Shown one piece after another: positions 6,616 through 42,228 of a stretch of 64,000 nt of DNA; the first letter of the stretch is position 1; the number at the start of each line of letters is the position of its first letter. Source of the DNA: Pseudopyrenochaeta lycopersici (taxonomy: Eukaryota > Ascomycota > Dothideomycetes > Pleosporales > Pseudopyrenochaetaceae); NCBI GenBank assembly GCA_003313425.1, contig NHZP01000028.1, positions 248,001 to 312,000 on the forward strand, read 5' to 3'. A program made the translations under genes and the position numbers. The notes beneath the pieces were generated by a model. That model was not told the DNA's origin and made no database searches. It saw only the letters and a list, made by a program, of their open reading frames with translations.

Positions 6616-7987
6616 TGTAAATTGCGAGCTTCCCACATGCTCGGATAATTTCTTCCTTTTTGGCCGTGTGCATAGCTTGTTCCTTATGAATTTCTTTGGC
6701 CAGCCGGCGGACACCTCTCACCGAACTAGGCGTCTTGCTCTTCACATCATTGTTGCTATTTGTTGGAGACGGAGTCTTCGTCTTTAGGGAGTTTAGGGCC
6801 TTTTCGGGCTCCAGAGGGAAGATTCCAGGACCAGAAAATGCTGATTTGATGTTCGAAACGGTGACCGAGCGCTCCCAAGCAGCTGCAAAAAGCCGCCAGA
6901 AGCTTCGTTTTGTCAGGCGGGAGAAGCCACGGCTCGATTGAATTAACTGATCGATCTGCTCTGAGTATGCATGCGCAAGAGGCGAGAAAATGCCAACGTC
7001 AAGTGGCTGCAGGCGGTGGGTTGAAAGTGGAGGTAAAACCACCAACAGAATCCCATTCTTGTCGCAATAGTCGATAAACCGGAGGTTTATGTGACTCGAA
7101 TGGCCATCGACAAGAGACAGACGCCTCGAATGGCCCGCTTTCTCCTTTGTATGCTGGTCAAATATCTCGAGCCATTTCATCCCAAGATCCTCATTTGTCC
7201 ATCCTTTCTCAGAAGTTGCAAAGTATGCTTGGTCAGATGAGTGATCAAAATCCTCTAACCAAGTGTCTTGGAGATCTCCGGACGTTCCCTGGTAAATGAG
7301 AGCCGGTGGAATGGCTGTTCCGTCCGCGCAGATGCAGGCAAGGAGAGATGAACTCTCGGCTCCCATCTTGGCTTGCACCGATGATTTTTTTTGCTCTTGA
7401 GTTGTTTGATCCCAACGATGCGCTTAGTGGAATGGCAGAGGCCGAGAAGAAAGCCTTTCTCATCGAAGTTGTGGATGTTGTGCGGCTTTATGTGGTATTT
7501 CTCCACCTTTTGCTTCAACTTTTAAGCTGTAAGTAATAGAACATAATTAAAGGCTTCAGGGCCTTACATTGGCGTAGAAGTGGTTAAAATAAGGAGAATT
7601 ATCAGCGACTTGACGTGTCTGGTCAATTGCGCGAAGATAGAGGCTTTTAATCTTGTTTTGGTGGCGCTCCCAGAATGTGGTCACCCAGTTCTTTCCGGGC
7701 TGTTTTTTAATGATCTCAAACACGAGATTCCTTAGAAATTGAGGTGTGGGAGGTAGGTCACGATCTGAAAGATTATTGACATGCTGTATAAGAGCCTCTT
7801 CTTGTCCATCTGTGAGCAGCTGAAGAGATTCAGAGTGTGCTTGCTGAACGGAGCGAGAAACGCCTTTATACCTGCGCATCAGGGTTGTACGGTCAATTTT
7901 GAATTTCCTTGCAGTTTTGGCGTAATTTGGCACTTCTTGCGAATTTAGATCATCAATCGCCTTCTGAATATCTGTTTCGTTGGCCAT
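6569..7987 (-). pseudogene. pogo-type transposase, frameshifted and C-terminally truncated
   Basis: Starts at MANETDIQ (7987) with a psq-type helix-turn-helix (about residues 12-45), then a CENP-B/Tc5-type DNA-binding segment with PGKNWVTTFWERH. A 49-bp intron (7519-7567) joins HFYAN to LKQKVEKYHI. The catalytic core carries CADGTAIPPALIY, VDGHSSH and RLQPLDVGIF, the three acidic-residue regions of the DDE_1 superfamily. The frame breaks near 7380-7390 at an A-rich run (KSKKNHRCKP versus KSKKIIGASQD in the P5 copy). The C-terminal coiled-coil tail is missing. Nonfunctional. Confidence 0.8.
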
Positions 7988-12275: not shown

Positions 12276-12300
12276 TAAGCTCGGCCCCCTAATTACTTTA

Positions 12301-14386
12301 ACATGCTCCACCAGCTGATGCACGTCCCCACCTGACGCACGCAAAACACATCAATTCTTCAACACGTGACAACACCATCAATATAGCTAGTATGGAGGAA
12401 GCGCTTGCTGCGTTAGAATCCTTGAAGCTTGGAGAATCATTTAGCTACTCAGAATATGCAAAAAGTATGGTGTTGACCAGCCAACGCTTTCGCGTCGCCA
12501 CCGACGTGTTACTCAAAGTAATGCACTCAAAGTCGAAAAAAGCCAGTTACTCAACACCACGCATGAAGCTGAACCCTTACAGTATATCCATAAGCTTTGC
12601 AAGCGTGGATTACCTCCTTCTAAGCCAATGATTCGAAATTTCGCATCCCAAATCGCCAGAAAGCCAGCGGGCAAAAACTGGGTAGATCGAGCTCATCTCA
12701 CACTGGGCATCCGGCCTCGATCGCAACCGCTTCAGAGCTGATTCTGCCTTTAACTATAGCCTCTACTTTGAGCTATTGGAGTAGAAAATTGAGGAATACA
12801 ACATTGATAGTCATTATATATACAACATGGATGAGAAGGGCTTCCTCATTGGCGTGCTCTCTAAGGTCAAGCGTGTATTCTCTAGAAGCATGTATGAATC
12901 AGGAAGACTGAGGCACCTCATCCAGGATGGCAATCGTGAGTGGATTACTACTATAGCTTGCATCTGCGCAGATGGTACAGCTCTTACGCCAGCGCTCATC
13001 TACCAGGCTGCCTCTGGTGCAATTCAAGATACCTGGTTGCAGGATTTTGAGGCAGGACAACACCAAGCCTTCTTCACCTCATCCTTAAGTGGATGGACGA
13101 GCAATGATATTGGCCTAAGCTGGCTTGAACAAGTGTTCAATCGCGAGACTAAAGCTAAGGCGCGCACCTTGTGGCGGCTACTCATCCTTGATGGCCATGG
13201 ATCTCATGTATCCATGGATTTTACAGATATTTGCGACAAAAACAAGATCCTCCTCGCCATCCTACCTCCTCATTCAACCCATACGCTTCAGCCACTCGAT
13301 GTGTGCCTCTTCGCTCCTCCCGCCGCTGCCTATCGCAATGAGCTCGCCAGCTTCATGCACAAAGCTCAAGGATTTACCTCTCACAAAGCGCGATTTCTTC
13401 AAGTTGTTCTATCGCGCCTGGCACTCAACGTTCACCAAAACAACGATTTTGAAGGCTTTTGAGGTTACAGGGCTCTCACCTTTGAATCCTAGCGTTATCC
13501 TTAAAAAGTTCAAAACTGCAACACCAAGCAACGAGCGACCCTCCTCAAGCGGCAGCAACTCTTCTATACTCAGCGCTAGCGATTGAAAAAAGATTGAGCT
13601 GCTGCTGAGGCAAGCTGTGGAGGGTATATACGATTCCAAGTCACAGAAGCTTAACCGAGCCTTGCACACAACCTCAATTCAAAATGCCTTTCTACAACAT
13701 GAAAATGAGCAGTTCAAGGAGGCTCTAGCCAATGAGAAGAAGCGCCGTCAGCGCGGCAAGGCTCTGCTGCTTGAAGCACCAGAGGAATACCATGTTGGAG
13801 CTATGTTCTGGTCGCCTGGTAAGATTCAAGAAGCTCGCCAACGGCAGCAGCAGAAGGACCATGAAGATGAGGAGCTTCAACACCAAAAAAATGGGGCTAT
13901 TCAACTCCGTGAGCAACAGAAACTTCTCAAAGCAGAGCAGCTTGAGCAGAGGCGATTATTGAGAGTTGCAGCCAAGGAGGAGCGCGAGCAGTTGAAGCGC
14001 CAAAAAATTATGGATCGCGAGGAGCAAAAGGTCACTCGGGGGCTTCAGAAACAACTCCACAACGATCTCAAATTATGTAAAATAGGCAAGAGACGTAGCC
14101 TCAAGCTTATAGAAGTTTCAGAGGAGGTTGTGGTTGATAAGGATACTGCTGAGGTTGAAGCAGCTGTTCCTGCCAGCTCTCGCTCTGGGCGAATTATTCG
14201 ACCACCACAGCGATTTATTACATAATTTTAGATTGCGCAACTGTTCTATATCTCAATTTAATTGCAACACCAGAAAATCTCGTGATAATAGCTTTTATGG
14301 GTGGCTCTATAGCCTCAATTGCGCTGCTGGTTATCTGGTGTTTTTCGTGCATCAGGTGGGGACGTGCATCAGCTGGTGGAGCATGT
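12301..14386 (+). mobile_element. Pogo-like element P1A (decayed copy of P1B)
   Basis: TA at 12299-12300 and 14387-14388. The ends carry a cap ACATGCTCCAC and two 17-bp units of the type CACCTGATGCACGTCCC. 2,086 bp. Same family as 18051-20169 in the opposite orientation, inserted in the left terminal repeat of P2. Confidence 0.88.
12392..14225 (+). pseudogene. P1-family pogo transposase, multiple frameshifts and stops
   Basis: Collinear with the intact 619-residue P1B transposase. It starts MEEALAALESLKLGE, then loses frame near 12460-12540. A deletion removes part of the DNA-binding domain near 12690, and a TAG interrupts near 12781 where the intact copy has Gln. The core 12827-13400 is open, with CADGTALTPALIY and LLILDGHGSH. 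The frame shifts near 13380, a TGA replaces Trp near 13586, and the coiled-coil tail 13617-14225 is open to GRIIRPPQRFIT. Dead copy. Confidence 0.85.
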
Positions 14387-14470
14387 TACGGCCACCTGGC
14401 TTTCCGGCCACCCCACCAAAATTGTCAACCCTCAAAAAATTCAAGATATCTCAACGCACTATACTTCAAA

Positions 14471-17957: not shown

Positions 17958-18050
17958 TATCTCGATTTTTTTGAGGGTTGACAATTTTGGTGGGGTGGCC
18001 GGAAAGCCAGGTGGCCGTAAAGTAGGGGACCGAGCTTAGTTGTTACAGTA

Positions 18051-20169
18051 ACGTGTTCCACCACCTGATGCACGTCCCCACCTGATGCACGCGCAACACC
18101 ATGCAACCAACAAAATAATTGAAGCTGTACAGCCACCAACAATAGCTATTATTTCGAGATTTTTTAGAGTCACCATCTAACGACTATATAGAAGATTTGC
18201 GCAGTCTTATATTACGTAATATGTCGTTGTGGCGGTCGAATAGGTCGCCCGGAGCGAGAGCTTGCATGAGCAGCTGCGTCAACCTCAGCAGGATCCTCAT
18301 CAACCACAACAGCCTCTGAAGCTTCAATAAGCTTGAGGCTTCGTCTCTTGCCTAATTTGGACAATTTGAGGTCGCTATTAAGCTGTTTTTGAAGCTCACG
18401 AGCGACCTTTTGCTCCTCGCGATAGGCAGCTTTCTGAAGCTTCAAATGCTCACGCTCTTCCTTGGCTGTAACCCTCATCAATCGCCTCTGTTCAAGCTGC
18501 TCGGCCTTGAGAAGTTTCTGTTGCTTTCGTAGCTGGATAGCCTCACTTTTTTGGTGCTGGAGCTCCTCATTTTTATGGTCCTTCCGCTCCTGCCGTATAC
18601 GAGCTTCTTGAATCTTCTTAGGTGACCAGAAAACAGCTCCACCATGGTTTTCCTCTGGAGCTTGAAGCAGTAGAGCTTTGCCACGCTTGCGACGCTTCTT
18701 CTCATTGATGAGGGCCTCTCGAAGCTGCTCATTTTCGTGTTGAAGTAAGGTATTTTGGACTGACATTGTGTGGAGCGCTCGGCTAAGCTTCTGTGCCTTC
18801 GAATCGTATATATCCTCAACAGCACGCTGTAGCAATAGCTCAATCTTTCTCCAATCGCTAGCGCTGAGTACAGAGGAGCTGCTGCTGCTCGAGGATGGCC
18901 GCTCATTGCGTGGTGTTGCAGAATTGAACCTTTTAAGTATAACGTTTGGTTCAAAAGGTGAGAGCCCTGTAACCTCAAACGCCTTCAAAATCCTTGTTTT
19001 AGTGAACGCTGAGTGCCAGGCACTATAGAATAACTTGAAGAAATCGCGTTTTGTAATCGAGGTAAATCCTTGAGCTTTGTGCATAAAGATATCGAGTTCA
19101 TCGCGGTAGGCAGCTGCGAGAGGAGCGAAGAGGCACACATCGAGCGGCTGAAGCGTATGCGTTGAATGAGGAGGTAGTACAGCGAGGAGTATCTTGTTGT
19201 TGTCGCAAAAATCTATAAAATCCATAGTTACGTGAGATCCGTGGCCATCGAGGATGAGCAGCCGCCACGAGCTGCGCGCCTTAGCTTTAGTCTCGCGATT
19301 GAAGACTTGTTTGAGCCAGCTTAGGCCAATATCGTTGCTTGTCCATCCACTTGATGATGAGGTAAAGAAGGCTTCGTGTTGTGCAGCCTCAAAATCTTGT
19401 AACCAGGTATCTTGTATGGCACCAGAGGCAGCCTGGTAGATGAGCGCTGGCGAAAGAGCTGTACCATCAGCACAGATGCAAGCTATAGTAGTAATCCACT
19501 CGCGATTACCATCCTGGATGATGTGCCTCAGTTTTCCTGACTCATACATGCTCCTAGAAAACACGCGTTTACTCTTAGAGAGTATACCAATGAGGAAGCC
19601 TTTCTCATCCATATTGTACATATAGCGACTATCAATACGATATTCTGTAATTTTCTGCTTTAGGAGCTCAAAGTAGAGGCTATACTTGAAGGCAGAATCA
19701 GCCTTGAAGCGGTTACGATCGAGGGTGGATGCCCAGTGAGATATGAGCTCGATGTTATGCCGTGCGACGAAGCGGTCAACCCAGTTTTTGCCTGCTGGCT
19801 TTTGAGCGATTTGGGATGCGAAATTTCGAATCATAGGCTTTGAAGGAGGTAATCCACGTCTGCAAAGCTTATGAATATACTCTATAAGCTCAGCTTCTTG
19901 TGTAGTGTTGAGTAATTTGCTGTTATCGATTTTAGATGCATAGCTCTGAGTAACACCTCTATGACGGCGCGACAGCGTTGACCGGTTAACACCATATTTT
20001 TTTGCAACATCCGCGTAACAGAACGGTTCTCCAAGCTTCAAGGATTGCAGCGCAGCAAGCGCGTCCTCCATATCGTTAATATTCGTGGTGTTGTTACGCG
20101 TTGAAATTTTGATGAAATTTGGTGTTCGCGTGCATCAGGTGGGGACGTGCATCAGGTGGTGGAACACGT
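18051..20169 (-). mobile_element. Pogo-like element P1B, intact
   Basis: 2,119 bp, TA at 18049-18050 and 20170-20171. Inverted ends have the cap ACGTGTTCCAC and two 17-bp units starting CACCTGATGCACG. It lies 14 bp from the P2 right end. Both ends and the transposase frame are complete, so it may be autonomous. Confidence 0.9.
18212..20071 (-). CDS. P1B pogo/Fot1-type transposase, 619 aa
   Basis: Cut-and-paste transposase of the pogo group (DDE_1 superfamily, CENP-B-like). Residues 1-50 form a psq helix-turn-helix (ADVAKKYGVNRSTLSRRHRG), about 60-130 the CENP-B/Tc5-type second DNA-binding domain (AGKNWVDRFVARH), and about 150-390 the catalytic core with YNMDEKGF, CADGTALSPALIY, LLILDGHGSH and LQPLDVCLF. 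From about 420 to 600 it is a long charged coiled coil, ending in the basic GRPIRPPQRHIT. The ATG at 20071 lies just inside the terminal repeat. Single exon with no internal stop. It could act on P1A and P1B ends; whether it acts on other families with the same cap is unknown. Confidence 0.93.
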   Translation of the reverse strand: MEDALAALQSLKLGEPFCYADVAKKYGVNRSTLSRRHRGVTQSYASKIDNSKLLNTTQEAELIEYIHKLCRRGLPPSKPMIRNFASQIAQKPAGKNWVDRFVARHNIELISHWASTLDRNRFKADSAFKYSLYFELLKQKITEYRIDSRYMYNMDEKGFLIGILSKSKRVFSRSMYESGKLRHIIQDGNREWITTIACICADGTALSPALIYQAASGAIQDTWLQDFEAAQHEAFFTSSSSGWTSNDIGLSWLKQVFNRETKAKARSSWRLLILDGHGSHVTMDFIDFCDNNKILLAVLPPHSTHTLQPLDVCLFAPLAAAYRDELDIFMHKAQGFTSITKRDFFKLFYSAWHSAFTKTRILKAFEVTGLSPFEPNVILKRFNSATPRNERPSSSSSSSSVLSASDWRKIELLLQRAVEDIYDSKAQKLSRALHTMSVQNTLLQHENEQLREALINEKKRRKRGKALLLQAPEENHGGAVFWSPKKIQEARIRQERKDHKNEELQHQKSEAIQLRKQQKLLKAEQLEQRRLMRVTAKEEREHLKLQKAAYREEQKVARELQKQLNSDLKLSKLGKRRSLKLIEASEAVVVDEDPAEVDAAAHASSRSGRPIRPPQRHIT

Positions 20170-20171
20170 TA

Positions 20172-27005: not shown

Positions 27006-27290
27006 ATGCAGAAGACTCAAGAAACAATGCACAAAATTGCTCATCCAACTGAGCACACGAAACAGCACGCCGGACCTCACGAATCTCAGACCGCCAATCG
27101 GCTCGATCCACGCGTCGACAGCGACCGCGATAACTCCAGCAATCTTGGTGCACGCGATGCCAAGCCCCCAACCAGCAAAATCCATACCGGCCCTCACGAC
27201 ACCGCGACCGGAAATATACTCGATCCTCGTGTCGATAGCGACCGTGATCATTCCAGCAATCTTGGTGTCCGGAACGCTACCAGTACCTAA
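27006..27290 (+). CDS. Small hydrophilic two-repeat protein, 94 aa, function unknown
   Basis: The frame encodes two tandem repeats of about 38 residues. Each has a GPH segment, then LDPRVDSDRD(N/H)SSNLG. It is very hydrophilic and His/Asp-rich, with no signal peptide or membrane segment. Short fungal proteins with repeats of the DPRVDSD type are widespread and uncharacterised. The antisense frame is also long and repetitive, but only because the DNA is repeated. No introns needed. I cannot assign a function. Confidence 0.6.
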   Translation: MQKTQETMHKIAHPTEHTKQHAGPHESQTANRLDPRVDSDRDNSSNLGARDAKPPTSKIHTGPHDTATGNILDPRVDSDRDHSSNLGVRNATST

Positions 27291-28010: not shown

Positions 28011-28203
28011 GCTGTATATAGGGTTCGGATTCATTTTAAAATGCCTCATAAGACTAAGCCAAATGAGGTATCATAAATTCATCATTTTTTACATGTGAGC
28101 TCATAATTAAAATGATGACTAAAAGATGCACCTCTGTAATCTCGCTACAGCACTATTAACGTGTTCCACAAGCCAGGCGATCATACAAGCGAGGCGATCA
28201 GCC

Positions 28204-31200
28204 CAGACCTGGACATCGTTCGTCTAAACGATCAGTAAACGATGATCGATCGTTCGGCGAACGATCGTCGTTCGGCTATCGTTAGCTTTGTTATTGTTCT
28301 TGTTTACAGACGCGTCGCAAAAGCGGGGAAGCGGAGAAGTCAACAGATGAGATCATGAACGCGTTAATACAGTTTTACTGTAAATTCGTTCCATTTCTCT
28401 TGTTACTCCTTTATCGACTGCCAGCATGAGCTTAAAGAATCGTCGAAAGCGATTAGCTACTCATCTTGACGACACTGGACCGCAACAACGTCGTAGTAAA
28501 CGATTATCGCAGCTTATTATCCAGGATGAGGACTCTCCTATCCAGCAAAGGTTTGATCTTAACGATACTAACGACGACGAGCTTTCAGAAGTTATCGCAG
28601 ATCCCTCTATACGTACTGAGTTACAGCGTACCAACGATGACTCAATCTGGCTACCAGAAAGTCAGGGTGACGAGCCAGCCACTGCTCTAAAGTTTGACTA
28701 CAGTTGGGTTGATTGGGAGCGTATCTCAAGCTTTGCAACGCCTCTTAGTGATGTTAAAGTCACCCAGTGGGTGTGGAAATATGGGGTTCCTATAGAGCAG
28801 AAAGATCGAATGACTAAGGCGAGATTCTGGTTGTGCAAGCCGTGTTACCTAAACGGGAAGGAGATTACCTACAACGTAACGAGAGGTGTCCAAAGCGTGC
28901 GCAAGCACATGGCTCAGCACCACCCAAAGCTTGCAGAAGACGAGAGCCTAGAGGACTTTAAGCTTGCTAACTGGTTTCGTTCGTGTGGCCTTGACCCATC
29001 TCGAAGCGATCACCAACGCATTATTGCTCGATTACTCCGAAATACCGACTTCGAGAGGATTAACCAAGCTCTAAGGAGGTGGGTGGTGAGGCGTAGGATC
29101 CCATTTCAGCGTGTTGATGACCCTGAATTCCTCGAATTTCTGGCCACGTTGCAACCACTAGTTCAAACCCCAAGGGCTATAAACAATAGGTGTACGATTG
29201 CCCGGCGAGTGCTTGAAGATCTAAAATACCATCAGCGTGAGATAATACAGCTTTTGCAGCAAGCTCCAGGCATGATCCACCTCGCATTCGACTTGTGGAC
29301 GTCACCAAACTTACATGCAGTTAATGGAGTAGTTGCTCACTTCGCTAACTGTGAGGGCACCAACTGTAAGCTTCTACTAGGCCTCTCACCGTTTTACGAC
29401 TCTCACGAGGGCGTTAATATCGCCCAGGACGTATATCGAATTGCCAAGACATATGGAATTGTGGGCAAGCTTGGCTACTTTGTCCTTGACAATGCTAGGA
29501 ACAACGATACAGCTATTGACGCGTTGGCAAAGCTTCTTAACGTTCCAGAGGCTCCATGGGCTCACCAGCGGCGATTACGTTGTATGGGCCATGTCATCAA
29601 CTTGGTAGCGAGATCCCTCTTGTTTGGTGATCGAAAGGATATATATGAGGCCGAGAACCAGCTACTAAAGGATTCTCGCGATGAAGTAATGCTCTGGCAG
29701 TGCCAAGGACCTGTTGGAAAGATTCACAATGTTGTAAAATGGGTGCGTAAGAGCCCTCAGAGGCACGAGAGATGGCTGAAAGTTTGTGAGCGTGAGCGCA
29801 AGAAAAAGCTTATAAAGCCTTACCGCTTAGAGCTTGTACAGGACCAGCAGACGCGGTGGAACAGCACTTATCTTATGATTGATCGCGCAGTGGAACTTAT
29901 GGCTGAGGTTGACACATTCACCAACGACGAGAGCAACCGCTACTCTATAGCAGTTAGCAGCGGCAAGCGCGTTCAAAAAGGCAAAGACTCACTGTCGTTG
30001 TGGGTATTTAAAAATCGCTTCACACACGAAGATTGGGGCGTACTGCAAACTTTTCAAGGCCTCCTCCAGCCACTCTTTGAAGCAACAATGGCTCTGCAAG
30101 GCGACGCCAGCGCTGGCGATTTTGTAGGAGTTGGCTACGTCTTACCTACGCTTGAATGTATCCTCAGTCGTCTTGAGGATGCTAAGGCTGAGTACGCTGG
30201 TCGCGATACGAGGATACACGCATTGCTCGAACATGGATGGGCGAAGGCAGATGAGTACTATTGCCTTATGGATCGCTCACCAGCACTGGCAGCCGCCATT
30301 GTACTCGACCCACGCCGCAAGTGGCACTTTATTAACCGGCAATGGAAGCAGCAAGCAGGTAGAGCTTGGCTAAAGACTGCGAAGCAATCAGTGAGAGATC
30401 TGTGGCAGCGCGAGTATAAAGACTTGCCAGGCGAACTTGAAGCCACATCAACAAGATTACTAAGTAAAAAGCCACCTATATTGGGCGCACTAAGAACCTA
30501 CCTCGCCGCTGCAATTGATGAGGATGATCCTATTGTTGCTACGACTGCAGATGAGTACGATGAGTGGATAAGTAAGCCGCGAGTACGCAGTGTTAATCCT
30601 ATCAAGTACTGGCATTCCGCTGAGGTTCGTGGCCGTTATCCTCGCCTCGCCCGAATGGCGATTGATATCCTCTCTATCCCACCTATGAGCGACGAGCCAG
30701 AGAGGGTCTTCTCCCTTGCTGGTATCCTCCTTGATAAGCGGCGTCAAAGTATGAGTGTAGAGGTAATGGAGGCAAGCGAACTGCTTGCAAACTGGGATGC
30801 GCAAGGGCTTATTACACTAGGGTCGCCAGCAGGCTTAGGCAACGATAAGAGCAACCGCGAAGTGGAGGATGAGGAGGGTAGCGAGCAGCTGACACCGAGT
30901 GCGACGCAGCTGAGCTTCTCGAATACTTCGGCAGTAGGGGAGCTGGCTAATAGCCGTTTCTCAACACTAGAACTGTAGCGACAGTTAGCAGCGATTGCGA
31001 GCTCTAATTTTTCTTTCAAATAAACCAAGCAATTTTTATATACAGGCGTTAGTAGGATAGGAAATCCTATTTAAGAGAGCTTGGCTTAATAATATATAGT
31101 ATAGCCTGTGCGCTGCCTATACAACTTTCCTAAAACAGGAATTAGGAATAGCTAAGATTTACGAGATTTTCACAGTTTATATAGTAAATACCTAGTCAAT

Positions 31201-31294
31201 AGAATAAGAACCACTTCTTGGCCATAAACGTCGTTCGGACGATGAACGATCGTTCAAAACGATCGTTCGGGGAAACGAACGATGTCCAGGTCTG
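28204..31294 (+). mobile_element. hAT-A element inside the MITE (left copy)
   Basis: 3,091 bp, 20-bp perfect terminal inverted repeats starting CAGACCTGGACATCG, flanked by the 8-bp duplication GATCAGCC (28196-28203, 31295-31302). Complete transposase gene inside. Confidence 0.93.
28426..30978 (+). CDS. hAT-A transposase, 850 aa (left copy)
   Basis: Intact single-exon hAT-superfamily transposase. A BED-type zinc finger lies at residues 137-166 (Cys137, Cys140, His161, His165/166). The catalytic region includes HLAFDLWTSPNLHAVNG and FVLDNARNNDTAIDAL, followed by CMGHVINLVARSLLFG. The C-terminal dimerisation block is INPIKYWH-like (VNPIKYWHSAEVRGRYPRLA) with SIPPMSDEPERVFSLAG. The first 90 residues are polar. 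Length and motif set are those of active elements. It can plausibly mobilise hAT-A; its ends differ from those of hAT-C, so it need not mobilise the composite. Confidence 0.93.
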   Translation: MSLKNRRKRLATHLDDTGPQQRRSKRLSQLIIQDEDSPIQQRFDLNDTNDDELSEVIADPSIRTELQRTNDDSIWLPESQGDEPATALKFDYSWVDWERISSFATPLSDVKVTQWVWKYGVPIEQKDRMTKARFWLCKPCYLNGKEITYNVTRGVQSVRKHMAQHHPKLAEDESLEDFKLANWFRSCGLDPSRSDHQRIIARLLRNTDFERINQALRRWVVRRRIPFQRVDDPEFLEFLATLQPLVQTPRAINNRCTIARRVLEDLKYHQREIIQLLQQAPGMIHLAFDLWTSPNLHAVNGVVAHFANCEGTNCKLLLGLSPFYDSHEGVNIAQDVYRIAKTYGIVGKLGYFVLDNARNNDTAIDALAKLLNVPEAPWAHQRRLRCMGHVINLVARSLLFGDRKDIYEAENQLLKDSRDEVMLWQCQGPVGKIHNVVKWVRKSPQRHERWLKVCERERKKKLIKPYRLELVQDQQTRWNSTYLMIDRAVELMAEVDTFTNDESNRYSIAVSSGKRVQKGKDSLSLWVFKNRFTHEDWGVLQTFQGLLQPLFEATMALQGDASAGDFVGVGYVLPTLECILSRLEDAKAEYAGRDTRIHALLEHGWAKADEYYCLMDRSPALAAAIVLDPRRKWHFINRQWKQQAGRAWLKTAKQSVRDLWQREYKDLPGELEATSTRLLSKKPPILGALRTYLAAAIDEDDPIVATTADEYDEWISKPRVRSVNPIKYWHSAEVRGRYPRLARMAIDILSIPPMSDEPERVFSLAGILLDKRRQSMSVEVMEASELLANWDAQGLITLGSPAGLGNDKSNREVEDEEGSEQLTPSATQLSFSNTSAVGELANSRFSTLEL

Positions 31295-31671
31295 GATCAG
31301 CCCGATTCTCACCCAAACCTATACATTGTATCTCTACAACGACTCAATGGTGTATTACGAAAGTGTACAAAGACGTTTGAATACTTTTTTACAACCTCTA
31401 TTTGGAGTATAAGAGTAGTAAGTCTAGCGGTTCTTGAGAAATCGAGTTTTGGCCCCCAAATTCGAGCCGAACTACAAGATCTCAAGAATTATCAGTTCTA
31501 CTAAGCTGAAACTCGAGAAAGGATCTCCAGGCACATAAGAAACACTAAGTTCGAAGCCATAGGAAATCCTGTTGAGTCGTTGTAGAGATACAATGTATAG
31601 GTTTGGGTGAGAATCGGGCTGATCGCCTCGCTTGTATGATCGCCTGGCTTGTGGAACACGTTAGTGTTGTA

Positions 31672-33544
31672 TTATGCCTTATCTTCATCCTCAATAACGT
31701 CTATAAGCTCAACTTCCTCTACTTCAGCATTTAGCTCTGGATTCCTTGTATGATCTTCTCCAATCTTAAGTAGAGCATCCTCAAGGTCAATAAGTTCTCC
31801 TTCAGTAGCTCGATCTGCCTTAATTCTCTCCAAAACCCTCTTATTAATATAGATATACTGAAGCATATCAACCTTGTCAGGTCTAAGGCGATTTCGAAGC
31901 TTATTATGGAGAAGCTTAAGGATAGAGAATGACCGCTCAGATGGGACTGAATTACACGGTGTAGATGCAAGCCTAATAGCAATAGGGGCAATAGCTGGAG
32001 CAATAGTCCTTGCAACCTTCCAGAATGTCCGCATATTCTGCTTATACTCCCAAATGAAATGACCACAATGGAAGCGCTCCTCTCTATACCTAAACTCTAA
32101 GATCTGGCCCATCCCATGTTGGTTGTCAATCCCTTGCCTCTTAAAGAACTTATGGAGTATGCCAGTAACCTCTACATTAGTATGGAAGGGGATCTCATCA
32201 TCCCCTAGAGTAGTAGGGTTCAGGAGGTAAGCGACAATGTGGATGTCTCCTGTCTGGCGTAGGAAGCGAGACTTAAGAGTTTGAGTCTCCCATTGCTGGT
32301 AGTCAACAATCTCAGGGTGGCATGTAAGCATACGCTGGAGATGGCGGAAGCAATCCTTCCACATTAGGACCACGTATTGTAGCGTTGCAGAGTCAGATTC
32401 TGACTTCTTAATAGCCTTATCAATTGGCTCAAGGACGTCAAAAATGAAGTCTAGATCAACCCAGAATCGGCCATCCTCTATGGTAGGTATAACGTCTCGG
32501 ATCTCTTTTACTAGCGTCCTCTGGGAGCAATGTGGCGTACTTGAGCAGGGCTGGGTAGGCTCTCCTGACTGATTTGATCATCGCAGTTTGTGTTCCCCAG
32601 CGTGTAATGACAGAGAGCGCAAAAGAATACGTGGATCCTATTGTTGACTGCATAATATCGCGGAGGGTAGCAAGCTGCTTTGGTGCACAGGTGAATGCTG
32701 TAACGACAGCTTGAGCCTGTTTAACACGCTCAGAGAACCACGGTATGCTAATGACGTCCTTGATGAGCAGCTGAAGACCGTGGCTACTGCAAGGCACAAA
32801 GAACATATGCTTGTATAGAGGCATGGTACCAAGAATGCGTGTTGCTTTGCCCTGAGTTGCGCATGTATCCATTGCTACTGAATTAAGTCTTGAAGTATCG
32901 CCGTCCGAGATGACCTGGAAGCGATGATCCAGCCAGTCTGCATGCCAGTCTCCATCACAGGTGTCTCCATTAACTATCTCTGAGTCCCAGTAGAAGGCAC
33001 CATGGCCAGGTATGTTGACACAAAGGTTTTGTACCCGCTGGCGTCGGATGTTGTTGGATTCATCCGCAATGAGGTTAAGGAGAGTAGCGTCATTGACGTG
33101 CTTAGAGACCTGCGTCTGGAGGCGCTTGTAGATGGCTGGGAGGAATGAGCGACTGATCTGGTTGCCAGTAGGAGGCTTGACAGTTGGATAGAAGCGCTTC
33201 ATGATAGGAGCAAGATGCTTATGGTCCTCAAATGCATCGAGTGGTAGACCGTCGAGAATAACTGCTTCAGCCATCTGCATCTGTAGTGCCTTGCCCATAA
33301 GTGCTGCAATGGTTGGAATAATAAGCTTCTGCTGTGCCAATGCCTCCTCTTCAGCAGCTTCCTCCTCTTTCCCTTGCTCATACTTCTGGCAGCTTTGTAG
33401 ATGTTTGCGGAGATCTGTGGTTTGCCAGGAGCGCTCATGGCCACAGGCTTTGCATTGGGCTCGGTCGGTCTTGTGTTCTGCTCGTTTGAACCGCTTAAAA
33501 GATAGGAGGACCTCGGTATCTGGAATACGACCTCTTTTAGTCAT
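31672..33544 (-). pseudogene. hAT-C transposase, one frameshift (left copy)
   Basis: Likely start MTKRGRIPDTEVLLSFKRFK (33544; an upstream in-frame ATG lies at 33637). A BED-like finger (CKACGHERSWQTTDLRKHLQSC) is followed by LLNLIADESNNIRRQ and VPCSSHGLQLLIKDVI. The frame breaks near 32500, where LLKYATLLPED runs out and the continuation VKEIRDVIPTIEDGRFWVD is one base away. It resumes to 31672 with the dimerisation motif NSVPSERSFSILKLLHNKLR. No GT-AG intron of plausible size restores phase. The same lesion is in both arms. Start sites of the two copies face each other across the palindrome centre, 332 bp apart. Confidence 0.82.
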
Positions 33545-33876
33545 GATGAGGCTGTAGAATTGCGAAAATGGAGTTGAGAAAAGGAGTTGGTAACCAGGCG
33601 AATGCTGACTAAAAAAGATGACGGCACAGACCATCATGTGATCCGAGCTTACGCGAGCATCCTAAATTCATCATAATTAGAAAATGAGCTCATTTGAAGA
33701 ACCCTAGCTGTATATAGGGTTCTTCAAATGAGCTCATTTTCTAATTATGATGAATTTAGGATGCTCGCGTAAGCTCGGATCACATGATGGTCTGTGCCGT
33801 CATCTTTTTTAGTCAGCATTCGCCTGGTTACCAACTCCTTTTCTCAACTCCATTTTCGCAATTCTACAGCCTCATC

Positions 33877-35749
33877 ATGACTAAAAGAGGTCGTATTCCA
33901 GATACCGAGGTCCTCCTATCTTTTAAGCGGTTCAAACGAGCAGAACACAAGACCGACCGAGCCCAATGCAAAGCCTGTGGCCATGAGCGCTCCTGGCAAA
34001 CCACAGATCTCCGCAAACATCTACAAAGCTGCCAGAAGTATGAGCAAGGGAAAGAGGAGGAAGCTGCTGAAGAGGAGGCATTGGCACAGCAGAAGCTTAT
34101 TATTCCAACCATTGCAGCACTTATGGGCAAGGCACTACAGATGCAGATGGCTGAAGCAGTTATTCTCGACGGTCTACCACTCGATGCATTTGAGGACCAT
34201 AAGCATCTTGCTCCTATCATGAAGCGCTTCTATCCAACTGTCAAGCCTCCTACTGGCAACCAGATCAGTCGCTCATTCCTCCCAGCCATCTACAAGCGCC
34301 TCCAGACGCAGGTCTCTAAGCACGTCAATGACGCTACTCTCCTTAACCTCATTGCGGATGAATCCAACAACATCCGACGCCAGCGGGTACAAAACCTTTG
34401 TGTCAACATACCTGGCCATGGTGCCTTCTACTGGGACTCAGAGATAGTTAATGGAGACACCTGTGATGGAGACTGGCATGCAGACTGGCTGGATCATCGC
34501 TTCCAGGTCATCTCGGACGGCGATACTTCAAGACTTAATTCAGTAGCAATGGATACATGCGCAACTCAGGGCAAAGCAACACGCATTCTTGGTACCATGC
34601 CTCTATACAAGCATATGTTCTTTGTGCCTTGCAGTAGCCACGGTCTTCAGCTGCTCATCAAGGACGTCATTAGCATACCGTGGTTCTCTGAGCGTGTTAA
34701 ACAGGCTCAAGCTGTCGTTACAGCATTCACCTGTGCACCAAAGCAGCTTGCTACCCTCCGCGATATTATGCAGTCAACAATAGGATCCACGTATTCTTTT
34801 GCGCTCTCTGTCATTACACGCTGGGGAACACAAACTGCGATGATCAAATCAGTCAGGAGAGCCTACCCAGCCCTGCTCAAGTACGCCACATTGCTCCCAG
34901 AGGACGCTAGTAAAAGAGATCCGAGACGTTATACCTACCATAGAGGATGGCCGATTCTGGGTTGATCTAGACTTCATTTTTGACGTCCTTGAGCCAATTG
35001 ATAAGGCTATTAAGAAGTCAGAATCTGACTCTGCAACGCTACAATACGTGGTCCTAATGTGGAAGGATTGCTTCCGCCATCTCCAGCGTATGCTTACATG
35101 CCACCCTGAGATTGTTGACTACCAGCAATGGGAGACTCAAACTCTTAAGTCTCGCTTCCTACGCCAGACAGGAGACATCCACATTGTCGCTTACCTCCTG
35201 AACCCTACTACTCTAGGGGATGATGAGATCCCCTTCCATACTAATGTAGAGGTTACTGGCATACTCCATAAGTTCTTTAAGAGGCAAGGGATTGACAACC
35301 AACATGGGATGGGCCAGATCTTAGAGTTTAGGTATAGAGAGGAGCGCTTCCATTGTGGTCATTTCATTTGGGAGTATAAGCAGAATATGCGGACATTCTG
35401 GAAGGTTGCAAGGACTATTGCTCCAGCTATTGCCCCTATTGCTATTAGGCTTGCATCTACACCGTGTAATTCAGTCCCATCTGAGCGGTCATTCTCTATC
35501 CTTAAGCTTCTCCATAATAAGCTTCGAAATCGCCTTAGACCTGACAAGGTTGATATGCTTCAGTATATCTATATTAATAAGAGGGTTTTGGAGAGAATTA
35601 AGGCAGATCGAGCTACTGAAGGAGAACTTATTGACCTTGAGGATGCTCTACTTAAGATTGGAGAAGATCATACAAGGAATCCAGAGCTAAATGCTGAAGT
35701 AGAGGAAGTTGAGCTTATAGACGTTATTGAGGATGAAGATAAGGCATAA
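33877..35749 (+). pseudogene. hAT-C transposase, one frameshift (right copy)
   Basis: Identical to the left copy in both open segments (33877-34965 and 35048-35749, the second frame being open from about 34910) and in the frame break near 34920. Upstream in-frame ATG at 33784. Nonfunctional unless the break is bypassed. Confidence 0.82.
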
Positions 35750-36126
35750 TACAACACTAACGTGTTCCACAAGCCAGGCGATCATACAAGCGAGGCGATC
35801 AGCCCGATTCTCACCCAAACCTATACATTGTATCTCTACAACGACTCAACAGGATTTCCTATGGCTTCGAACTTAGTGTTTCTTATGTGCCTGGAGATCC
35901 TTTCTCGAGTTTCAGCTTAGTAGAACTGATAATTCTTGAGATCTTGTAGTTCGGCTCGAATTTGGGGGCCAAAACTCGATTTCTCAAGAACCGCTAGACT
36001 TACTACTCTTATACTCCAAATAGAGGTTGTAAAAAAGTATTCAAACGTCTTTGTACACTTTCGTAATACACCATTGAGTCGTTGTAGAGATACAATGTAT
36101 AGGTTTGGGTGAGAATCGGGCTGATC

Positions 36127-39100
36127 CAGACCTGGACATCGTTCGTTTCCCCGAACGATCGTTTTGAACGATCGTTCATCGTCCGAACGACGTTTATGGC
36201 CAAGAAGTGGTTCTTATTCTATTGACTAGGTATTTACTATATAAACTGTGAAAATCTCGTAAATCTTAGCTATTCCTAATTCCTGTTTTAGGAAAGTTGT
36301 ATAGGCAGCGCACAGGCTATACTATATATTATTAAGCCAAGCTCTCTTAAATAGGATTTCCTATCCTACTAACGCCTGTATATAAAAATTGCTTGGTTTA
36401 TTTGAAAGAAAAATTAGAGCTCGCAATCGCTGCTAACTGTCGCTACAGTTCTAGTGTTGAGAAACGGCTATTAGCCAGCTCCCCTACTGCCGAAGTATTC
36501 GAGAAGCTCAGCTGCGTCGCACTCGGTGTCAGCTGCTCGCTACCCTCCTCATCCTCCACTTCGCGGTTGCTCTTATCGTTGCCTAAGCCTGCTGGCGACC
36601 CTAGTGTAATAAGCCCTTGCGCATCCCAGTTTGCAAGCAGTTCGCTTGCCTCCATTACCTCTACACTCATACTTTGACGCCGCTTATCAAGGAGGATACC
36701 AGCAAGGGAGAAGACCCTCTCTGGCTCGTCGCTCATAGGTGGGATAGAGAGGATATCAATCGCCATTCGGGCGAGGCGAGGATAACGGCCACGAACCTCA
36801 GCGGAATGCCAGTACTTGATAGGATTAACACTGCGTACTCGCGGCTTACTTATCCACTCATCGTACTCATCTGCAGTCGTAGCAACAATAGGATCATCCT
36901 CATCAATTGCAGCGGCGAGGTAGGTTCTTAGTGCGCCCAATATAGGTGGCTTTTTACTTAGTAATCTTGTTGATGTGGCTTCAAGTTCGCCTGGCAAGTC
37001 TTTATACTCGCGCTGCCACAGATCTCTCACTGATTGCTTCGCAGTCTTTAGCCAAGCTCTACCTGCTTGCTGCTTCCATTGCCGGTTAATAAAGTGCCAC
37101 TTGCGGCGTGGGTCGAGTACAATGGCGGCTGCCAGTGCTGGTGAGCGATCCATAAGGCAATAGTACTCATCTGCCTTCGCCCATCCATGTTCGAGCAATG
37201 CGTGTATCCTCGTATCGCGACCAGCGTACTCAGCCTTAGCATCCTCAAGACGACTGAGGATACATTCAAGCGTAGGTAAGACGTAGCCAACTCCTACAAA
37301 ATCGCCAGCGCTGGCGTCGCCTTGCAGAGCCATTGTTGCTTCAAAGAGTGGCTGGAGGAGGCCTTGAAAAGTTTGCAGTACGCCCCAATCTTCGTGTGTG
37401 AAGCGATTTTTAAATACCCACAACGACAGTGAGTCTTTGCCTTTTTGAACGCGCTTGCCGCTGCTAACTGCTATAGAGTAGCGGTTGCTCTCGTCGTTGG
37501 TGAATGTGTCAACCTCAGCCATAAGTTCCACTGCGCGATCAATCATAAGATAAGTGCTGTTCCACCGCGTCTGCTGGTCCTGTACAAGCTCTAAGCGGTA
37601 AGGCTTTATAAGCTTTTTCTTGCGCTCACGCTCACAAACTTTCAGCCATCTCTCGTGCCTCTGAGGGCTCTTACGCACCCATTTTACAACATTGTGAATC
37701 TTTCCAACAGGTCCTTGGCACTGCCAGAGCATTACTTCATCGCGAGAATCCTTTAGTAGCTGGTTCTCGGCCTCATATATATCCTTTCGATCACCAAACA
37801 AGAGGGATCTCGCTACCAAGTTGATGACATGGCCCATACAACGTAATCGCCGCTGGTGAGCCCATGGAGCCTCTGGAACGTTAAGAAGCTTTGCCAACGC
37901 GTCAATAGCTGTATCGTTGTTCCTAGCATTGTCAAGGACAAAGTAGCCAAGCTTGCCCACAATTCCATATGTCTTGGCAATTCGATATACGTCCTGGGCG
38001 ATATTAACGCCCTCGTGAGAGTCGTAAAACGGTGAGAGGCCTAGTAGAAGCTTACAGTTGGTGCCCTCACAGTTAGCGAAGTGAGCAACTACTCCATTAA
38101 CTGCATGTAAGTTTGGTGACGTCCACAAGTCGAATGCGAGGTGGATCATGCCTGGAGCTTGCTGCAAAAGCTGTATTATCTCACGCTGATGGTATTTTAG
38201 ATCTTCAAGCACTCGCCGGGCAATCGTACACCTATTGTTTATAGCCCTTGGGGTTTGAACTAGTGGTTGCAACGTGGCCAGAAATTCGAGGAATTCAGGG
38301 TCATCAACACGCTGAAATGGGATCCTACGCCTCACCACCCACCTCCTTAGAGCTTGGTTAATCCTCTCGAAGTCGGTATTTCGGAGTAATCGAGCAATAA
38401 TGCGTTGGTGATCGCTTCGAGATGGGTCAAGGCCACACGAACGAAACCAGTTAGCAAGCTTAAAGTCCTCTAGGCTCTCGTCTTCTGCAAGCTTTGGGTG
38501 GTGCTGAGCCATGTGCTTGCGCACGCTTTGGACACCTCTCGTTACGTTGTAGGTAATCTCCTTCCCGTTTAGGTAACACGGCTTGCACAACCAGAATCTC
38601 GCCTTAGTCATTCGATCTTTCTGCTCTATAGGAACCCCATATTTCCACACCCACTGGGTGACTTTAACATCACTAAGAGGCGTTGCAAAGCTTGAGATAC
38701 GCTCCCAATCAACCCAACTGTAGTCAAACTTTAGAGCAGTGGCTGGCTCGTCACCCTGACTTTCTGGTAGCCAGATTGAGTCATCGTTGGTACGCTGTAA
38801 CTCAGTACGTATAGAGGGATCTGCGATAACTTCTGAAAGCTCGTCGTCGTTAGTATCGTTAAGATCAAACCTTTGCTGGATAGGAGAGTCCTCATCCTGG
38901 ATAATAAGCTGCGATAATCGTTTACTACGACGTTGTTGCGGTCCAGTGTCGTCAAGATGAGTAGCTAATCGCTTTCGACGATTCTTTAAGCTCATGCTGG
39001 CAGTCGATAAAGGAGTAACAAGAGAAATGGAACGAATTTACAGTAAAACTGTATTAACGCGTTCATGATCTCATCTGTTGACTTCTCCGCTTCCCCGCTT

Positions 39101-39217
39101 TTGCGACGCGTCTGTAAACAAGAACAATAACAAAGCTAACGATAGCCGAACGACGATCGTTCGCCGAACGATCGATCATCGTTTACTGATCGTTTAGACG
39201 AACGATGTCCAGGTCTG
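36127..39217 (-). mobile_element. hAT-A element (right copy)
   Basis: Mirror of 28204-31294, same CAGACCTGG ends and GATCAGCC duplication (read on the minus strand). Confidence 0.92.
36443..38995 (-). CDS. hAT-A transposase, 850 aa (right copy)
   Basis: Residue-for-residue identical to the product of 28426-30978, open throughout, with BED finger, catalytic region and C-terminal dimerisation block. Two identical intact copies in opposite orientation mean either gene could supply transposase for both hAT-A copies. Confidence 0.93.
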   Translation of the reverse strand: MSLKNRRKRLATHLDDTGPQQRRSKRLSQLIIQDEDSPIQQRFDLNDTNDDELSEVIADPSIRTELQRTNDDSIWLPESQGDEPATALKFDYSWVDWERISSFATPLSDVKVTQWVWKYGVPIEQKDRMTKARFWLCKPCYLNGKEITYNVTRGVQSVRKHMAQHHPKLAEDESLEDFKLANWFRSCGLDPSRSDHQRIIARLLRNTDFERINQALRRWVVRRRIPFQRVDDPEFLEFLATLQPLVQTPRAINNRCTIARRVLEDLKYHQREIIQLLQQAPGMIHLAFDLWTSPNLHAVNGVVAHFANCEGTNCKLLLGLSPFYDSHEGVNIAQDVYRIAKTYGIVGKLGYFVLDNARNNDTAIDALAKLLNVPEAPWAHQRRLRCMGHVINLVARSLLFGDRKDIYEAENQLLKDSRDEVMLWQCQGPVGKIHNVVKWVRKSPQRHERWLKVCERERKKKLIKPYRLELVQDQQTRWNSTYLMIDRAVELMAEVDTFTNDESNRYSIAVSSGKRVQKGKDSLSLWVFKNRFTHEDWGVLQTFQGLLQPLFEATMALQGDASAGDFVGVGYVLPTLECILSRLEDAKAEYAGRDTRIHALLEHGWAKADEYYCLMDRSPALAAAIVLDPRRKWHFINRQWKQQAGRAWLKTAKQSVRDLWQREYKDLPGELEATSTRLLSKKPPILGALRTYLAAAIDEDDPIVATTADEYDEWISKPRVRSVNPIKYWHSAEVRGRYPRLARMAIDILSIPPMSDEPERVFSLAGILLDKRRQSMSVEVMEASELLANWDAQGLITLGSPAGLGNDKSNREVEDEEGSEQLTPSATQLSFSNTSAVGELANSRFSTLEL

Positions 39218-39410
39218 GGCTGATCGCCTCGCTTGTATGATCGCCTGGCTTGTGGAACACGTTAATAGTGCTGTAGCGAGATTACAGAGGTGCATCTTTT
39301 AGTCATCATTTTAATTATGAGCTCACATGTAAAAAATGATGAATTTATGATACCTCATTTGGCTTAGTCTTATGAGGCATTTTAAAATGAATCCGAACCC
39401 TAGCTGTATA

Positions 39411-39966
39411 CGTCTTTGTTACATAAAGCCCGCTAGCATCTTCAGGAGAAACGTCATCAATAGTCATGCAGAGAACTTATCTAGGCATTTAAGAATATTC
39501 AAAAGTCTTCAGACGCGCAGGTCAAGATTGAATTGACAACGCTACATTAGCATGATAAAGCGCCGAAAGTTCTTTCCAACACCCAAGGTCGGCATCAAAA
39601 CATACTTAAAATTTCAAATCGCCTTAATTGGGCCTGGTACACACTACCACCTGCGGCTGTAACGGGCCCAGACATGCTCATGTGAGACAAAATTGTTCAT
39701 GCAAGGAGTGCGGGGTAGGTAGGCCAAGATTTTGCCCCTGATCCACTGTTGTTTAACCTTAGCACAGAAATAAACAGCAAATTTACTTTCATGGAGGCCG
39801 AAGAATATTTGTTGGTGAAAACACCCCCTAGTTTAGAGAGAGTCCCTTTCACCTGTGCCTCTACTGATCGAGATTGACTGGCGGAGAGCCCAAATGGGGG
39901 TGGGGGACTGTGCCAAGTCTATTATTTGTAGGAACCGGCACCGGCAATGCCCCTTGTCTGTGCGCG
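39411..39966. other. Spacer between palindrome and P5
   Basis: AT-rich, with no gene recognised. Confidence 0.35.
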
Positions 39967-39968
39967 TA

Positions 39969-42228
39969 ACGTAATTCCCGGCATCTTGACCATCCCTGCA
40001 TCTTGACCACCCATCCAAAATCAAGTGTCTGATTTTAAAATGATATTACTCCACAACAGATCAATAAATTTATATAAAAGTTTGAAGATTTATAGAATAG
40101 AACCTTAAGAAGTTACTTGCCATGTTTTTTAGTCTAAAAATCGCCGTGGGGGACCGATTTTGCGCCCGGTCCTCGAAACTCTCAAAACCTGCCCATCCTG
40201 ATTTGACCCATTGCGATCTGATCCACAAACGGCTGCAGACAAATTTGCTGCCACAGCCTGATTCTTCGAAACCTGTTTCTCTATTCGAGTCGCTTTTTTA
40301 GGCGCCTTCGCCTGTTCCTGGGTTGCGATCTTGCGCCTTTTTACCGCTAGTTTTCCTCCATCTTCTCCGCCCCGCTTTCTCTGAGCCTCTCGCTCAGCAG
40401 CTAATTGAGCCTTTTTTTTCAAGCTGGATTTGTTTTGAAATAAGTTTTTCAGCTTTGCGCTCTTCGTTCTGTTTTGCAGCATGTTCGCGCTCTGCAATTT
40501 TGGCTTGTTTCTTTGCCTCTCTTTCTCGTGCCTTTTCCGCCTTTGCCCGGGCTTTCTCCTCCTTTGTCTTGCGCCTGTTGGACCTTCCTTTCCTCTGCGA
40601 GAGACTTTTGCAGTTGGCTTTCAATTTCTATCTCTTCTGCTCGTTGTCTAACTACTGCAACCATTGATGGCGTAAAGAATTGCGCTTCTCCAGGCCGTTC
40701 TTTATCAAAAAGTCCCATACCTTTGCCTCTTTTCCGCTTTTTCTTCTCTCCCACAAGTGCTGCACGCAACCCGATAACCTCGTGCTGGAGAATATCATTC
40801 CGAACTGCCAGCTTCCCACACGCTCGGATAATTTCTTCCATTTTCGCTGTGTGCACAGCTTGTTCCTTGCGGATTTCTTTGGCCAGCCGACGGACTCCTC
40901 GCACAGACCCCGGCGTCTTCTTCTTTAAATCATTGTCACTGTTTTCCGGAGACGGAGTCTTTGCCTTTATTGACTTGTGTACCTTTTCGGGCTCTAGAGG
41001 GAAGATTCCAGGGCCGGAAAATGCCGATTTAATGTTTGATACGGTGAGCGAGCGCTCCCAGGCCGTTGAAAAAAGCCGCCAGAAGCTTCGTTTTGTTAGG
41101 CGAGCGAATCCGCAGCTTGATTGAATCAACTGATCAATCTCTTGTGAGTATGCATGCGCAAGAGGCGAGAAAATGCCAACGTCAAGTGGCTGCAGGCGGT
41201 GGGTTGAATGTGGAGGTAAAACCACTAGGAGAATCCTGTTCTCGTCGCAATAGTTGAACAAACGGAGGTTTACGTGACTTGAATGGCCATCGGCGAGCAA
41301 CAGGCGCCTCGAATTGCCCGCCTTCTCCTTTGTATGCCGATCAAATATCTCGAGCCATCTTATCCCAAGATCCTCGTTTGTCTATCCTTTTTCGGAAGTT
41401 GCGAAGCATGCACGGTCAGATGAGTGATCAAAATCCTCTAACCAAGTGTCTTGAAGGTCTCCAGAGGTACCCTGGTAAATAAGAGCTGGTGGAATGGCCG
41501 TTCCGTCCGCACAGATACAGGCCAGTAGAGAGATAAATTCTCGGCTCCCATCTTGGCTCGCACCAATAATTTTTTTGCTCTTGAGTTGTTGGATTCCAAC
41601 TATGCGCTTCATAGAATGGCAGATGCCAAGAAGAAAGCCTTTCTCATCAAAGTTGCGGATGTTGTGCGGCTTTATGTGGTATTGTTCTATTATTCGCTTC
41701 AACTTTTAAGCCGTAAGTAATAGAATATAATAATGGGCTTTACGGCCTTACATTAGCGTAGAAGTGTTCAAAATAAGCAGAATTATCAGCGACTTGACGC
41801 GTTTGATCGATTGCGCGAAGATAGAGGCTTTTAATCTTGTCTTGGTGACGCTTGCAGAATGTTGCCACCCAGTTCTTTCCAGGCTGCTTTTTCGCAATCT
41901 CATACACGAGATTCCTGAAAATTTGAGATGTAGGGGGTAGACCACGATTCGAAAGATTATTGATATGCTGTATAAGAACCTCTTCTTCTTCAATTGTAAG
42001 CAGCATATGAGATTCAGAGTATGCGAGCTCTTTCGGCTTCGAAATGCCTTTATGCCTGCACTGGAGGGTTCTGCGATCGATTTTAAATTTCTTCGCAGCA
42101 GCAGAATAATTTGGCACGTCTTGCGATTCCAGCTTCGTTGACCATTTGGCGCCGTGTTGAAGTTGGGTGGTGAAGAGGCGTTGAGGGTGGTCAAGATGCA
42201 GGGATGGTCAAGATCCCGGAAATTACGT
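39969..42228 (-). mobile_element. Pogo-like element P5
   Basis: 2,260 bp with complete ends. TA at 39967-39968 and 42229-42230; cap ACGTAATTCCC, then two 17-bp units GGCATCTTGACCATCCC and TGCATCTTGACCACCC(A). Confidence 0.88.
40129..42161 (-). pseudogene. P5 pogo transposase, one stop, one frameshift, small N-terminal deletion
   Basis: The N-terminus is damaged: compared with the 6.6-8.1 kb copy about 26 bp are missing after the first five codons (MVNEA), and the frame is open again from MPNYSAAAKKFKID (42117). An intron (41703 to about 41751) joins HFYAN to LKRIIEQYHI. A TAG at 41382-41384 replaces the Trp of KGWTNEDLG. The core has CADGTAIPPALIYQ, ADGHSSHVNLR and RLQPLDVGIF. The long Lys/Arg-rich coiled-coil tail changes frame near 40450-40500 and ends GRKIGPPRRFLD at 40129. 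Confidence 0.82.

Follow-up and report, generated by a model that had tools for sequence, protein, structure and literature searches.

Long palindromes are sites of chromosome breakage, and how they originate is seldom legible afterwards. In Drosophila singed-weak, two P elements lie in opposite orientation at one common 8-bp site, and same-site double insertion of DNA transposons (P element and hobo) was reportedly described in Drosophila by McGurk and Barbash in 2018, as papers citing that work recount it. In the accessible parts of three further sources, P-element tandems of Drosophila are described as having formed by double insertion at one site (PMC8909793), hobo, which is a hAT element, is found in 13-19 tandem copies in one Drosophila strain (PMC7214746), and tandem same-site pairs are commonly head-to-tail (PMC12368964). 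For Ac/Ds, a hAT system of maize, the accessible text reports transposition during replication into replicated or unreplicated sites (PMC4270019). Here we analysed a window of 64,000 nucleotides from the fungus Pseudopyrenochaeta lycopersici (C28:248001-312000, where C28 is contig NHZP01000028.1), searched the whole assembly (62.7 Mb, 188 contigs), and describe an approximately 11.4-kb palindrome composed of two identical copies of a nested hAT element that occupy one 8-bp target in opposite orientations. We consider it likely, with a probability of roughly 0.7, that one copy inserted first and the other then landed precisely in its target duplication.

Same-site double insertion is already known, and the inverted, perfect, 11.4-kb version built of nested hATs is a variant of this known accident. 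The pair shares with the P and hobo insertions of Drosophila the placement of two copies at one target site, and differs in being inverted, 11.4 kb long and nested, where the Drosophila pairs are tandem and, in the texts available, commonly head-to-tail. With singed-weak it shares opposite orientation at one 8-bp site; the elements there are short, defective, unequal members of the P superfamily, whereas here they are hATs, identical and 5.7 kb each. Ac/Ds resembles the present case in the movement of a hAT in S phase and in its 8-bp duplications, but reversed Ac/Ds ends, as described, produce duplications and composite insertions with flanking DNA carried along in them, whereas the flanks of the present locus are not doubled. 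An inverted hAT pair at a single site was undescribed in the titles and abstract openings of the matches listed, which is weak evidence since most subscription papers lay outside this coverage.

The left arm (28019..33706, + strand) and the right arm (33715..39402, - strand) are exact reverse complements over 5,688 of 5,688 positions about a mirror axis at 33710.5. A first-pass annotation, made from the letters alone, had proposed this perfect palindrome and recommended aligning the arms to count their differences; the count is 0. If each mirrored pair agreed with a chance of one in four, 5,688 pairs would agree with a probability of ~10^-3424. Mirroring outward from the axis, mismatches inside the palindrome are confined to the 8-bp centre, where they affect 3 of the 4 mirror pairs. 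The next mismatch occurs at offset 5,692, within the outer copies of the same 8-mer, and the flanking DNA past those copies has no mirror symmetry. The 8-mer, GCTGTATA, lies in direct orientation on the + strand at both outer borders (28011..28018 and 39403..39410) and as the centre (33707..33714), just where the first-pass annotation had placed it, and the central copy is not self-complementary. The left arm is a complete nested element with ends TAGGGTTC...GAACCCTA that form an 8-bp terminal inverted repeat, and the right arm is the same element reversed. Three direct target copies with element ends flush against them are the pattern of same-site double insertion; the head-to-tail order of the described tandems is absent, the arms being inverted.

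The junction sequence is specific to this place. GCTGTATA occurs five times on the + strand of the window, with 0 matches on the opposite strand; besides 28011, 33707 and 39403 it is found at 7783 and 41967, because two members of a repeat pair unrelated to the palindrome (6620-7942 and 40803-42126, 84% identity, the second overlapping a DDE_1 open reading frame (ORF)) each bear the 8-mer at the corresponding position, as judged by coordinate comparison. Searched as a 24-bp sequence with both element ends, the centre gave 1 match in the window, whereas 100 shuffles gave 0. When the outer ends were searched with any 8 bases between them on one strand of the assembly, the only exact match was this centre, and allowing 2 mismatches added 6 sites, against 38 for a reversed-pattern control on one strand. 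The 82 nt about the centre are predicted to fold into a perfect hairpin whose loop is the 8-mer (DNA parameters, -39.2 kcal/mol, z -17.7).

Within each arm the elements are nested: an outer hAT contains a miniature inverted-repeat transposable element (MITE) at a TA, and the MITE in turn contains a second hAT. The first-pass annotation had spoken of composite hAT elements; the assignment to hAT stands, and nested is the better term. In the left arm, the outer hAT begins with a left terminal piece (28019..28156, +) and resumes with a right part that carries its transposase gene (31663..33706, +). The MITE between them (28159..31661, +) is flanked by TA, is about 404 bp long from the coordinates once its insert is subtracted, and is interrupted by the inner hAT; in a copy of the outer hAT on contig C56, the TA is visible unoccupied by a MITE. 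The inner hAT (28204..31294, +) measures 3,091 bp, has the ends CAGACCTGGACATCG.../...CGATGTCCAGGTCTG, and encodes an 850-aa transposase (28426..30978, +; Dimer_Tnp_hAT, PF05699, 1.4e-13), of which a C-terminal stretch resembles Hermes transposase structures (4 distinct sequences, best E 1.6e-7, 56 residues). On either side of it stands the 8-bp duplication GATCAGCC (28196..28203 and 31295-31302, +), just as GCTGTATA is the 8-bp target duplication of the outer hAT, whose terminal inverted repeats are the 8-bp TAGGGTTC/GAACCCTA. In the right arm, the inner hAT lies at 36127..39217 (-), with its 850-aa ORF at 36443-38995.

The outer transposase gene provides a marker of common descent. In the left arm it runs along 31672..33637 (-) and is divided into two ORFs, 32456-33637 (DUF659) and 31672-32373 (Dimer_Tnp_hAT), which carry hAT-type domains (PF05699 5.2e-10, PF04937 2.2e-9). 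The frame is interrupted once, and identically in the right arm (33784..35749, +). Since the MITE sits ~10 bp beyond the stop codon of this gene, the nested insertions have left it untouched. The first of these ORFs has 60 protein matches, the closest four of which are 583-635 aa long and 77-95% identical over 88% of the ORF; a search of solved structures with a 623-aa relative (P0001) gave no match. The right part of the outer hAT was found at 4 places in the assembly, namely the two arms, C56 and C28:527645 (3 of 3 candidates scored), and the left piece at 3, namely the two arms and C56, where the first 15 bp are missing. At both C56 and C28:527645 the transposase frame is open along its full length and the left end is altered or missing, so that by appearance these copies are themselves immobile and could be suppliers of transposase. 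At these two loci GAACCCTA abuts different sequence, which confirms the right end as a transposon end. Outside the two arms, no complete nest was found in the assembly among the matches listed, the searches with the right part and the left piece agreeing. Since no third complete nest was found, and since the two arms share a frame break that neither of the other two loci shows, one arm was most likely copied from the other.

Three direct 8-mers and a non-palindromic centre point to two target-site insertions at one 8-mer. Among the readings considered, only a reversed second insertion, made exactly into the duplication left by the first, explains at once why the 8-mer is present in three direct copies, why the centre is non-palindromic and why the mirror ends where the element ends, and this reading is supported. 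The first-pass annotation had put forward the same history, and the junctions, the failure to find a complete nest outside the two arms, and their common frame break favour it. The sequence of events may have been as follows. The nested element, with its outer transposase out of frame, would have been mobilised in trans, for example by an open-frame copy, and would have inserted at GCTGTATA to give the order 8-bp/E/8-bp, where E is the element. After replication of the locus, the element on one sister chromatid would have been excised and would have entered, in reverse, the duplication beside the copy on the other sister, producing 8-bp/E/8-bp/reversed E/8-bp. The donor sister would have been left with an empty or repaired site and would have been lost from the sequenced line. 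Targeting of that very 8-mer could reflect the proximity of the sisters, and transposase attached to the ends of the resident copy may have contributed. With no third complete copy found and a frame break common to both arms, the copy at the same locus on the sister chromatid is the simplest donor, and the second copy probably came from there.

The inner hAT family offers a measure of age. Its search listed 60 matches and the best 39 of 84 candidates were scored, so that counts for this family are lower bounds. The arm's inner hAT differs from six other copies (L001-L006) at 20-43 bases of ~3,091, gaps not counted. Two of these, L002 on C123 and L003 on C73, have 0 differences between them over 3,091 bp, although they lie at separate sites with different 8-bp duplications, and their identity is a sign of very recent activity. 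Equal flanking 8-mers stand at 6 of the 8 other inner-hAT loci fetched, and an 850-aa protein is encoded by 4 of the 6 other copies in a fixed-offset test, in which the frame of L006 ends prematurely and an upstream gap prevents a verdict on L005. The unequal 8-mers at L004 (C64:145189-148281) and L008 (C70:37435-40289) may reflect recombination between copies, or decay. Repeat-induced point mutation was rejected as a clock, as most of the 8 loci tallied had no strong C-to-T excess (in L006, 19 of 42 changes run in that direction). Dinucleotide indices bearing on the same process are unremarkable, and the genome has 4 DNA methylase matches. Since L002 and L003 show the same complete identity, over 3,091 bp and at different sites, recency is enough to account for the zero divergence of the arms. 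The first-pass annotation had called the palindrome either very recent or specially tolerated: the former holds up, and the latter is unneeded.

If two elements had entered one target, then a related sequence lacking them should carry a single 8-mer, and a candidate for such a site lies on the same contig. Diverged relatives of the left flank are found at C28:366522-367289 (83%) and C28:509196-509672 (84%), and of the right flank at C28:508110-508611 (74%). In the paralogue C28:508110-509672, both flanks are thus present in the same order and orientation, ~570 bp apart, without the 11-kb insert, and the right-flank homology crosses one GCTACATA, in the place of GCTGTATA, and six further bases.

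Several points weigh against the double insertion. The ~500 bp left of the site could not be aligned to the paralogue beyond shuffles (score 97; 50 left-flank shuffles, mean 65, largest 107), leaving the case for an empty site to the right flank, whose homology crosses the 8-mer and six more bases. Identity to the paralogue is no higher than 74-84%, and the match of the second paralogue ends short of the insertion site. An ancestral site with a single 8-mer is therefore supported, not proven, by the comparison of paralogues, which partly supports a full empty site. For the outer family, a complete left end was seen in the two arms alone, without outside confirmation. A search for another same-site pair of the inner hAT gave 0 matches in the assembly at <=3 mismatches. 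Exact reuse of one 8-mer would be improbable without some local preference, the donor could have been elsewhere and since lost or unassembled, and the structure is known here from the assembled sequence of one strain alone.

An assembly or read artefact, in which a fold-back read, or merging, turned a single genomic element into two, is unlikely. Long inverted repeats that are identical are a weak point of assemblers, and on C86 the same assembly contains another inverted duplication, over 13 kb long with 99.8-100% identity. If a fold-back read were responsible, however, then the flanks would be mirrored too and the third direct 8-mer would have no source. This had been argued in the first-pass annotation, and the argument is upheld, as the mirror stops at the element borders and does not continue past the target-site copies into the flanks. 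Merging of orientation variants in the assembly graph would, we infer, require that two right ends be linked through GCTGTATA in a single read. The C86 duplication itself (C86:16000-29172 and 65677-78850; L022, L039, L023, L038) includes an interrupted inner-hAT copy and extends past the stretch examined. C86 was rejected as a palindromic contig, for its middle is not mirrored and the two parts form a wide inverted duplication with a ~36-kb spacer.

We regard as doubtful a joint arrival, in which both copies came into one target from a donor elsewhere, for instance from two sister copies of a donor locus. It accounts equally for the identity of the arms and the common frame break, but it requires two excisions, two hits on one 8-mer and a donor that has vanished. 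Very unlikely is a pair of long-separated, independent insertions that were homogenised later by gene conversion between the arms. Palindrome arms are able to convert one another, as in sex-chromosome palindromes, but we found no second complete lineage as a possible source, and there is no need to invoke conversion for the 0 differences over 5,688 bp when separate inner-hAT copies are already identical. Independent old copies were rejected, given 0 differences of 5,688 between the arms and 20-43 of ~3,091 between the arm's inner hAT and six other copies.

An error of repair or replication that doubled a single element (template switching, over-copying gap repair, hairpin replication) is hardly credible, even though inverted duplications are often so formed and hAT transposases, in the accessible part of one report, leave hairpin-capped flanks (PMC4763223): over-copying from the sister should yield direct tandems, a strand switch or fold-back through the 8-mer would put GCTGTATACAGC at the centre, where it is absent, hAT hairpins form on the flanks and not on the element ends and so should mirror the flanks, and two exact switches at both element ends would be required. 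Fold-back copying, hairpin capping and gap repair were rejected by such reasoning on the centre, the orientation and the borders.

The surroundings hold a few other features. About 240 bp right of the insertion, 39640-39760 is a cysteine-rich, metallothionein-like stretch (labelled by eye), which in the C28 paralogue L036 is an open 37-aa frame and in the window lacks the start region and is not open. Left of the insertion, a short ORF (27006-27290) with two similar repeats (DPRVDSDRD) belongs to a stretch that two diverged paralogues elsewhere on C28 have retained. Further away, 12299-14448 and 17958-20171 form an inverted pair of ~2.2 kb with 82% identity.

As regards its consequences, inverted 320-bp Alu repeats with a 12-bp spacer lead to loss of chromosome-arm fragments in yeast, according to the accessible text (PMC3855049). 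Because inverted repeats far shorter than these arms already break yeast chromosomes, an 11.4-kb palindrome would be expected to be short-lived, which is consistent with the zero divergence of its arms. A transcript of it may have effects of its own. In maize, Mu killer is an inverted copy of MuDR that silences its family; the present locus is likewise an inverted transposon duplication, of another superfamily. The genome has RNA interference (RNAi) genes, with 7 Piwi, 9 RdRP and 4 Dicer_dimer matches over the cut-off, counted exon by exon, so that a putative hairpin transcript of the palindrome could be processed. It is a long shot that the double insertion acts as a self-made off switch, in which a hairpin RNA with a stem of 5.7 kb, produced by read-through over the 8-bp loop, would silence two transposon families in trans. 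If this were true, the predicted stem would span the recently active 3.1-kb hAT, the MITE and the outer hAT, and would feed silencing by RNAi in a manner like that of Mu killer; the palindrome would, in addition, represent a fold-back element with giant terminal repeats at its birth. The junctions themselves point to one route by which a palindrome may be born, in which a transposon uses its target duplication a second time and leaves the flanks undoubled, and, if real, the locus would make it possible to measure the lifetime of an 11.4-kb palindrome whose loop is 8 bp and to see whether its relatives are silenced.

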